Source: Microcaldota archaeon
Lineage (GTDB): Archaea; Micrarchaeota; Micrarchaeia; Micrarchaeales; Micrarchaeaceae
NCBI GenBank assembly: GCA_021816895.1
Contig: JAKAWW010000001.1
Span: 805,067 to 869,066, forward strand
Length of the DNA: 64,000 nt
Direction of reading: 5' to 3'
The translations under genes and the position numbers were made by a program. A model generated the notes under the pieces. That model did not search any database and was not told the DNA's origin. It saw only the letters and a list, made by a program, of their open reading frames with translations. Of the stretch, positions 40,713 to 43,352 are shown piece after piece; the stretch's first letter is position 1, and every line of letters begins with the position of its first letter.

Positions 40713-41852
40713 ATGCTCAAACTCATAATAGCACAGGCGAACCTTATCTTCAAGGGCGGCGCCGAGAGGGTGGTGCTCAAGATAGCACAGCACTACAAGG
40801 CCAAGATTTACACCGCCGAATATTCAAAAGAGAATACATTTGAAGGATTCAAAGACCTTGACATAGAGATTATAGGGAAAAGCGCATTTGCCAAGCTTCT
40901 CCCATATGGCAGGGCTGCGCAAGGCCTGAATTACGGGCTCTCTTTTTACAACTTCAGGATAAAAGATGATTATGACGTGATAAATGCCCACATCGCCCCG
41001 AGCCATTGGATCAGGAACAAGAACGAGCGCGTGCTCTGGTACTGCCACACACCGTTAAGGGATGTGTATGACTTGTACGACTACAGGCTGTCCCTGAAGA
41101 AAAGCTATCAAAGGCCGATATATGCGATGGGCGCAGGAGCCGTGCGGCTGATAGACAAGGACGTAGTCAAAAGGATAGGCTACATTGTCGCAAACAGCAA
41201 CAATACCAAGTCGAGGATAGAGAAATATTACGGCAGGCGCGACGCCCTGGTGCTTGGCGGCGGCGTTGATTATGAGATGTTTAGCAATGAGGGAGATGAC
41301 AGGTATTTCTTTTATCCGTCGCGCATCTCGCCAAACAAGAGGCAGGATTACGCTATGCGTGCCTTTGAGATATTCAAAAGCAGGGTAAAAGGCTACAAGC
41401 TCATTATAGCTGGGGATGTATCGAAGGACAAGCTCTATTATGATTACTACACTTACATAAAGGATCTTGCCAGCAAGATAGGCGACGTTGAGATAATCGT
41501 CGGAGCTTCAGACAAGAAGCTCAATGAGCTGTACGCAAGGTCTACTGCTGTGCTATTTGCCGCAATGAACGAAGATTACGGGTTGGTGCCGCTAGAGGCG
41601 ATGGCAAGCCGCAAGCCAATCATATCTGTTAATGAAGGAGGGCCCATTGATACAATAGTAAACGGCAAAACAGGATACCTTGTCAACAGCATCGAAGAGA
41701 TGGCAGCAAGAATGGAGCAGGTGTCAGAGGACCAGCAGCTCGCTTCAGAGCTCGGCAGGAACGGCAGGAGAAGGATGATATCAAAATACTCGTGGAAACA
41801 CTTCTTCTCTAGATATGACAAGATACTTGCAAAGGCGAAGTCAGGCTCCTGA
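40713..41852 (+). CDS. GT4-type glycosyltransferase
   Basis: 379 aa GT-B fold enzyme. The N-terminal Rossmann domain has FKGGAERVVLKIAQHY and NAHIAPSHWI; the donor domain has YPSRISPNKRQDYAMRAFEI, then LIIAGDVSKD and the EX7E motif NEDYGLVPLEAMASRKPII. The donor sugar cannot be predicted. It probably builds N-glycans or other surface glycans, consistent with the sequon-rich surface proteins in this window. It converges on the half-TBP gene with a 12-base overlap. Confidence 0.88.
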   Translation: MLKLIIAQANLIFKGGAERVVLKIAQHYKAKIYTAEYSKENTFEGFKDLDIEIIGKSAFAKLLPYGRAAQGLNYGLSFYNFRIKDDYDVINAHIAPSHWIRNKNERVLWYCHTPLRDVYDLYDYRLSLKKSYQRPIYAMGAGAVRLIDKDVVKRIGYIVANSNNTKSRIEKYYGRRDALVLGGGVDYEMFSNEGDDRYFFYPSRISPNKRQDYAMRAFEIFKSRVKGYKLIIAGDVSKDKLYYDYYTYIKDLASKIGDVEIIVGASDKKLNELYARSTAVLFAAMNEDYGLVPLEAMASRKPIISVNEGGPIDTIVNGKTGYLVNSIEEMAARMEQVSEDQQLASELGRNGRRRMISKYSWKHFFSRYDKILAKAKSGS

Positions 41853-42137
41853 AGGGGCTTTCTCCTCGCTAGATGATATAACATATTTAGATATGACCTT
41901 TGCTGCATACTCAAGCACGCGCTTTATGTTTGCCTCTGTGCTGGAGCCGGTGCATATCATCTTGCCGTTCTTGAACAGTATTATTACTGCCTTTGGGTCG
42001 CTTATCCTGAATATGGCGCCGGGAAACTGCTCGGGCTCATAATCGACAGCCTTTACCTCTTTTGAGAGGGCATACAGGTCTATCACGGCGTGAAGATCGC
42101 CGCTCACCACTATGTTTTGCACCTTTATGGATGGCAT
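41841..42137 (-). CDS. Single-repeat TATA-binding protein (half TBP)
   Basis: Only 98 aa. VQNIVVSGDL, DYEPEQFPGAIFRISDPK and VIILFKNGKMICTGSS match one TBP repeat, closest to the C-terminal repeat of archaeal TBP (VQNxVxSGD, YEPEQFPG). The two DNA-intercalating Phe positions are kept, F38 and F55, with the correct 17-residue spacing. A normal TBP has two repeats and about 180 aa. The 120 bases upstream cannot hold the missing half, and the other side is the intact reductase gene. It would need to act as a dimer, or beside a full TBP elsewhere. The upstream frame is open but lacks a good start codon. Confidence 0.85.
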   Translation of the reverse strand: MPSIKVQNIVVSGDLHAVIDLYALSKEVKAVDYEPEQFPGAIFRISDPKAVIILFKNGKMICTGSSTEANIKRVLEYAAKVISKYVISSSEEKAPSGA

Positions 42138-42139
42138 GC

Positions 42140-42199
42140 CTATGTGCGCTTTCGCGCCGCCTTTAGCAACAACATTAGCGTTATCTGCCGTTTTATCAC
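42140..42199 (-). other. Possible upstream ORF in the half-TBP leader
   Basis: A 19-codon ORF in another frame runs from GTG 42199 (or ATG 42175, reading MLLLKAARKRT) to TAG, two bases before the TBP ATG. A GGTTGGTGAT sequence lies at its start. It may couple translation or may be chance. Confidence 0.3.
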
Positions 42200-42260
42200 C
42201 AACCTTTAATAACTTATGAAAGGAAACATTTTTATATATCTATCAAAGAGCGGCTTTGGT

Positions 42261-43352
42261 ATGAAGGTTGTAATAGTAGGTGCAGGCGTCATCGGCCTCG
42301 CCCTTGCAGGAGAGCTTTCACGGATGGGCATACACACAGAGGTCTATGACAAGAAAAAAAGCATAGCTTATGGTGCGGAGAAAGCTTCAGGGGTGCTTTC
42401 AATTGACGGGCTCAATGCTTCAGGCTTGCCATATTCAAAATCAATACTCAACACGCTTGACGGCGCAGTGCTATATGCAGGCAGCCAGAAGCTCGTGGTA
42501 AAGTCGAAAACCCCGAAAGCATATGTGATAGACAGGGCGCGGCTCCTTCAGGATACGCTAGAAAGCGCGGAGAGCGCAGGCGCAGCGGTTACTCTTGGAA
42601 GGGGCGTTAGCAAAGATGAGCTTCTGAAGATTGCAAGCTCCGGTGACATAGTGGTAGGTGCCGATGGTGCCATCTCGTATACGGCAAGCGCATTCGGCTT
42701 CCCAGGCATAGGAGAATTCGCACTGACGTACAAGGCAACCTACAAGCACGCTGAATTGATCCCCAAAGACATGGTAGAGCTTGTATTCTCAAATGCGACG
42801 CCTGGATTTTTCGGGTGGACGGTGCCTTACGGCAATGGCATAGTAGAGATAGGTGTTGGGGCGAGCACAAAAGCGAAGAAAAACAGCAGCAAGGCGTTCC
42901 AAGAGTTCTCAAAAAGCGACGTTGTGCTTGCGCATATCGCGAATGCCGAGAAAATCAGCGGCTATGCAAGCCTGATACCGCTTTCGACACGCAGCATCAC
43001 GGTCAAGGGCAACGTTGCGCTTGTTGGCGACGCTGCAGGCCAGGTGAAGGCCACCACTGGCGGAGGCATAATATTCGGCGTCGCATGCGCAAAGATACTT
43101 GCAAGATCGATAGGCGAGACAATAAGCAAGGGCACATCTCTTGAAGCTTATGAAAAGAGATGGCGCAAGGCATACGGCCACGACCTGAAGCTGCATGCAC
43201 TTGCACATGCATACTACTCTTCTCTGAATACAAAAAATTTCGAAACGCTGTTCAAGCTTTCCAGGCTGTTCGGCTTAGAGGGCTTTCTCGGAAAGTATGG
43301 CGACATGGACAGCCCCAGCAAGATAATAAGGCGCTTTTTCCTACGGAGATGA
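42261..43352 (+). CDS. Geranylgeranyl reductase family FAD-dependent oxidoreductase
   Basis: 363 aa. MKVVIVGAGVIGLALAGEL is the FAD-binding GxGxxG strand. YGAEKASGVLSIDGL, GDIVVGADGA and ALVGDAAGQVKATTGGGII (the GD motif) follow the family order. Enzymes of this group saturate archaeal membrane lipid isoprenoid chains; other members act on other polyprenyls, so the substrate is not certain. The frame extends upstream to 42216, but ATG 42261 begins exactly at the Rossmann strand and fits a leaderless start after TTTTTATATA. It overlaps the nuoN end by 12 bases on the opposite strand. Confidence 0.85.
   Translation: MKVVIVGAGVIGLALAGELSRMGIHTEVYDKKKSIAYGAEKASGVLSIDGLNASGLPYSKSILNTLDGAVLYAGSQKLVVKSKTPKAYVIDRARLLQDTLESAESAGAAVTLGRGVSKDELLKIASSGDIVVGADGAISYTASAFGFPGIGEFALTYKATYKHAELIPKDMVELVFSNATPGFFGWTVPYGNGIVEIGVGASTKAKKNSSKAFQEFSKSDVVLAHIANAEKISGYASLIPLSTRSITVKGNVALVGDAAGQVKATTGGGIIFGVACAKILARSIGETISKGTSLEAYEKRWRKAYGHDLKLHALAHAYYSSLNTKNFETLFKLSRLFGLEGFLGKYGDMDSPSKIIRRFFLRR

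Follow-up and report, generated by a model that had tools for sequence, protein, structure and literature searches.

The window analyzed here, a 64,000-nucleotide stretch of DNA, encodes a TATA-binding protein (TBP) with a single repeat, and the genome from which it comes probably assembles its TBP from two half-proteins of this kind. The gene, which we call paralog A, lies on the minus strand at 41841–42137 when read from its called ATG and encodes 98 amino acids with one TBP repeat. The source genome, from a member of the Micrarchaeota, is a single contig of 928,770 bp that is estimated to be 95% complete; near relatives with named loci are likewise assigned to Candidatus Micrarchaeota. Searches of this genome with Pfam and with a profile built in this analysis gave exactly two TBP matches, the window gene and a second gene at C1:207535–207777 (paralog B), both of which are single-repeat. 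Neither search found a full-length TBP in the source genome; the completeness estimate allows for ∼5% of the genome being absent, but the assembly is a single contig and the relatives concur. The genome has one TFB gene, which is intact and encodes a zinc ribbon as well as two cyclin repeats. The initial annotation of this DNA had proposed a genome search for other half-TBPs, of which paralog B is the one found, and it had also considered a half-TBP acting beside a full TBP, which does not hold in this genome, as both search models return just the second half-TBP.

That paralog A has only one TBP repeat, as previously claimed, is confirmed by both its profile match and its single-lobe fold. 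The single match to PF00352 covers profile positions 2–85 of 85 (E 9.9e-25), which is the whole model with nothing else in the ORF, and its score is 86.7 bits versus a gathering score of 22.9. The strong phmmer matches of paralog A are TBPs only. An AlphaFold2 model of the protein is a confident single lobe (pLDDT 86) that, in most of the top Foldseek matches, lies within ∼0.8–1.3 Å of one lobe of solved TBPs over 83 columns, and all 44 of the PDB matches at E ≤ 0.001 are TBP or TBP-containing chains. At 86.6 bits, paralog A is below the NCBIfam whole-protein cut-off for a TATA-box-binding protein (≥181 bits), and it lacks the two repeats per polypeptide by which a canonical TBP is recognized. 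No second TBP repeat was found near paralog A or in frame with it, either in the ORF list for every frame or in the genome profile searches. There is also no room for one, because a convergent glycosyltransferase-like gene (40713–41852, plus strand) overlaps the end of paralog A by 12 nt and a divergent gene, probably for a geranylgeranyl-reductase-like flavoprotein (42261–43352, plus strand), begins on the other side; both of these neighbors are named from sequence alone.

Paralog A shares its fold, its intercalating Phe residues, and its TFB-binding Glu pair with canonical archaeal TBPs (PDB 1mp9, 2z8u, and 1pcz; NCBIfam PRK00394), and it is 38–40% identical to the archaeal TBP structures over one lobe. 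The canonical archaeal protein has two repeats per chain that are 34–53% identical, whereas the source genome encodes only one repeat per chain. The initial annotation placed the lobe closest to the C-terminal repeat; this stands for the comparison with Pyrococcus TBP, in which the C repeat scores higher, but not for Sulfolobus TBP, in which the N repeat does, and the tree does not decide between them. A distant single-lobe relative with the TBP fold is the N-terminal domain of RNase HIII (PF11858/DUF3378). The match of paralog A to DUF3378 is weak (E 0.063, 13.9 bits versus a cut-off of 27), and, unlike RNase HIII, paralog A has no RNase H domain in its 98–116 amino acids.

The residues for DNA and TFB contact are retained in this lobe. 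In the translation, the first intercalating Phe, Phe38, is encoded at 42024–42026 and the second, Phe55, at 41973–41975 (both minus strand); their retention, noted earlier, proves to be general, as both are invariant in paralog A, in paralog B, and in all other single-repeat relatives. The stirrup YEPEQ (Y33–Q37; 42027–42041, minus strand) contains E34 and E36, which we equate with the TFB-binding Glu pair of the canonical C lobe (C.L3.2 and C.L3.4); the pair is defined in PMC7221094, and the mapping of positions is ours. In our alignment, E34 and E36 are kept at 98–100% in A and B, and the first Glu of the pair is mostly absent from canonical N repeats. Together with N8, V10, F38, and F55 on the DNA side, these TFB-side residues vary little or not at all across A, B, and the other single-repeat proteins, and they are also kept in both repeats of tandem relatives. 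Fixed differences between the two paralogs include H16, S25, V28, and I53 in A versus G/N16, A25, S28, and L53 in B.

Phylogenetic analysis places A and B in separate supported clades (support 98 for A and 99 for B of the family). The window gene has both marks of clade A, its position within that clade and its site between the glycosyltransferase-like gene, a conserved neighbor of paralog A, and the reductase-like gene, which adjoins paralog A across the family. Close pairs within clade A have dN of 0–0.05 and dS of 0.3–1.7, with differences that are almost all silent, and paralog A is under strong purifying selection. Clade B genes, most other single-repeat TBP genes, and most two-repeat TBP genes adjoin the gene for ribosomal protein eL21, which is the ancestral TBP site. 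Because B occupies the eL21 site and A a different one, B is the inherited TBP and A an added copy; because single-repeat and two-repeat TBPs are both found at eL21, changes in the number of repeats have taken place at a single chromosomal site.

Nearly all of the 25 same-family genomes listed contain two half-TBPs, at separate places, and exactly two TBP matches were obtained in 65 of the 83 family genomes sampled, most of those with fewer being incomplete. In one genome of the family, G009, a canonical two-repeat TBP (L003) is encoded as well, on another contig (C43); it is probably foreign and due to contamination by a Thermoplasmatales-like host. Many genomes of the sister family, including G025 (97% complete, 3 contigs) and G027 (93% complete, 1 contig), contain only one half-TBP, B. 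Because such genomes exist, a half-TBP must suffice in the sister family, where B would most simply work as a homodimer; and because many of these genomes do not have A, a functional TBP does not generally require it. One half-TBP is also found in other Micrarchaeota families (f8, f9, f10, f13–f15, f17, and f25), up to three half-TBP genes occur in f11 (L090, L091, and L092 in G064; L094 and L041 in G071), and a two-repeat TBP of ∼200 amino acids occurs in families f3, f6, f7, and f20. Two viral contigs contain a TBP-like stretch with 35% identity (L298 and L299).

The extent given for paralog A in the initial annotation, 41841–42137, is a genuine ORF on the minus strand, but its start is probably farther upstream. 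Upstream of the called ATG, the frame continues without a stop as far as an ACG at 42191–42189 (minus strand) that follows the sequence GGTGAT, a Shine-Dalgarno element (42195–42200, minus strand), and the probable full gene (41841–42191, minus strand) encodes 116 amino acids. In a comparison with the genome, the spacing of five between GGTG and the codon corresponds to one of its two modes. Of 24 family orthologs of paralog A, 18 have a Shine-Dalgarno-spaced ACG, in several of them directly behind an in-frame stop, and 8 have no in-frame ATG, GTG, or TTG before the TBP domain. Orthologs with this putative ACG start include L028, L029, L059, L067, L075, L079, L081, L082, L084, and L088; one further relative (L117) has ATA in place of the ACG. 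In the part of this genome that was sampled, genes do not usually start at ACG, and paralog B genes start mostly at ATG. A conserved ACG seems to be the start of most paralog A genes, probably including the window copy, and the non-AUG start suggests that the amounts of A may be limited.

Between the divergent starts at 42191 (minus strand) and 42261 (plus strand) is an A/T-rich, TATA-like element (42230–42240, in a stretch at 42225–42266), and this stretch is at a plausible distance from both starts. Paralog A and its divergent neighbor may both use this element in their promoters. Most sister-family genomes have, upstream of their half-TBP gene (TBP-B loci of family f2, e.g. L005, L009, L014, and L039), a conserved stretch resembling ATATAAATACCTTT that may be a TATA box combined with an autoregulatory site.

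Taking these data together, we consider it probable that TBP in this organism is assembled from two half-proteins, with B/B as the basal form and with A adding an alternative saddle, probably A/B; the stand-alone half is consistent with the dimer-forming state that the initial annotation had suggested. Dimerization, DNA binding, TFB recruitment, A/B pairing, and low translation of A are each predictions from sequence. Two half-TBPs would come together around the pseudo-dyad by which N and C repeats are normally related, and the saddle that they form on TATA DNA would have four intercalating Phe residues and, on either side, a stirrup for TFB. Paralog B, which occupies the ancestral locus, would be the basal subunit, and B/B homodimers would be enough, as they would be in B-only relatives. 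Paralog A, which is kept in almost all family genomes, would be an added subunit that most likely pairs with B, and the resulting asymmetric saddle would serve some or all promoters. The direction of transcription would be set by TFB reading its BRE, and the level of A would probably be held low by its non-AUG start codon. Promoter palindromy was used as a test of a symmetric TBP: a first motif search returned coding-like signals, and a second, performed without a canonical control, found a palindromic core, TATATA, in a B-only genome and TATAAAAA in the source genome and failed in a two-repeat genome.

A second arrangement, which we regard as possible but a good deal less likely, is that A and B form separate homodimers, B/B as the general TBP and A/A as an alternative one that serves a subset of promoters, by analogy with the multiple TBPs of haloarchaea. 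The two paralogs are old, distinct clades with fixed residue differences, they occupy separate loci and differ in start codon, which suggests that they are expressed separately, and B alone suffices in relatives; but no A-linked promoter class was found, and pairing agrees just as well with the presence of both genes in nearly all genomes of the family. The TFB-facing residues are the same in A and B, so the sequence does not demand A/B over A/A and B/B. It is unlikely that A is instead a regulator or antagonist that, by pairing with B or TFB, modulates or blocks the basal TBP. The conserved weak start (ACG and, once, ATA) hints at low, controlled amounts of A, as such a role would predict, but A keeps all of the DNA- and TFB-contact residues that were checked, some of which a blocker would be expected to lose.

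The two-repeat TBPs of Micrarchaeota and Iainarchaeota (e.g. L109, L113, L179, and L188) have an FKNGK signature in both repeats, like the half-TBPs, and most are found at the same eL21-linked site as the singles, but they have two repeats per chain. The identity between repeats is 52–80% in the two-repeat TBPs of Micrarchaeota and mostly 52–65% in those of Iainarchaeota, compared with 34–53% in ordinary archaeal ones; loci with unusually alike repeats are L109–L113, L157, L172, L175–L180, L183, L186–L191, and L227–L251. A natural tandem relative is predicted to fold as a whole TBP (pLDDT 91, TM to target 0.83–0.90 for most matches). In domain trees of 85–86 columns, all Micrarchaeota and Iainarchaeota halves are on one side versus the canonical N and C repeats (support 98 and 96). 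Grouping the canonical N repeat with the Micrarchaeota N repeat is disfavored when Iainarchaeota are left out (p 0.038), but not when they are included (p 0.28).

On the RpoB′ tree there are at least three changes in repeat number among Micrarchaeota and Iainarchaeota, or four when the canonical outgroup is counted. In this species tree, RpoB′ of the order that contains f1 and f2 (L221, L224–L226, L268, and L269) has a long branch (0.63), which suggests fast change of the transcription machinery in that order. The placement of all single-repeat Micrarchaeota in one clade is rejected (p 0.01), whereas one clade of two-repeat Micrarchaeota is not (p 0.45), and this difference favors an old single-repeat state in the phylum. 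It looks like the ancient TBP duplication was repeated in Micrarchaeota, although homogenization of old repeats may be an alternative to re-duplication. Reduction from a full TBP, which the initial annotation had offered, fits the species tree, with singles widespread and deep in Micrarchaeota. We think it very improbable that the single-repeat TBP of Micrarchaeota is a never-duplicated relic of the pre-duplication ancestor; the grouping of the halves against both canonical repeats and the apparent age of the single state agree with such a relic, but the split in the tree may reflect just long branches and few columns, and the root would have to lie next to the Micrarchaeota group, the canonical two-repeat TBP being, to our knowledge, otherwise general in archaea and eukaryotes. 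Finally, a truncated, frameshifted, or misassembled full-length TBP, which is suggested by the short length only and which the initial annotation had rightly doubted, is ruled out by half-size orthologs throughout the family and in tens of independent genomes, conserved sites, purifying selection, the absence of a full TBP from the genome, and the lack of a second repeat nearby in any frame.

Single-lobe TBPs of archaea are reportedly mentioned in a 2013 study by Brindefalk and colleagues. According to Ravarani et al. 2020 (PMC7221094), which cites Brindefalk et al. 2013, single-lobe archaeal TBPs exist in which, as in paralog A, one TBP lobe is the whole protein, and paralog A very probably belongs to this reported class. 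We found no account of half-TBPs as the sole TBP in the literature, in which Brindefalk et al. 2013 was represented by the citing paper. Nor did the accessible literature contain the A/B pair, the absence of a full TBP, the eL21 site, two-repeat forms whose repeats are near-identical, or the ACG start, and its papers on cultured Micrarchaeota make no mention of TBP. The initial annotation contained neither the phylum-wide spread and the single-gene relatives nor the near-identical two-repeat forms and the non-AUG start, because other genomes are needed to see them.

TBP is thought to descend from a duplicated half-sized protein that formed dimers, and we know of no described living system that relies on TBP halves. 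With half-TBPs apparently the sole TBP in a phylum that has cultured members, this dimer-first hypothesis becomes testable in living cells, among relatives that have one half, two different halves, or two fused near-identical halves at the same site. An analysis of 34 species (PMC4910066), in which the TBPs are two-repeat, takes the duplication as single since the N and C repeats form two clades, and the species list as printed there contains no Micrarchaeota or Iainarchaeota; that single-duplication assumption, used to gauge TBP evolution from repeat divergence, is put in question. The fuller proposal, to which we would give slightly less than an even chance, is that the basal TBP in Micrarchaeota is a homodimer or A/B heterodimer of half-size chains, that the half-TBP was re-duplicated and re-fused in sister lineages, and that one subunit is dosed by a non-AUG start in this family. 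These organisms thus open an experiment on the cost of losing the asymmetry of TBP and on how promoter direction is set.
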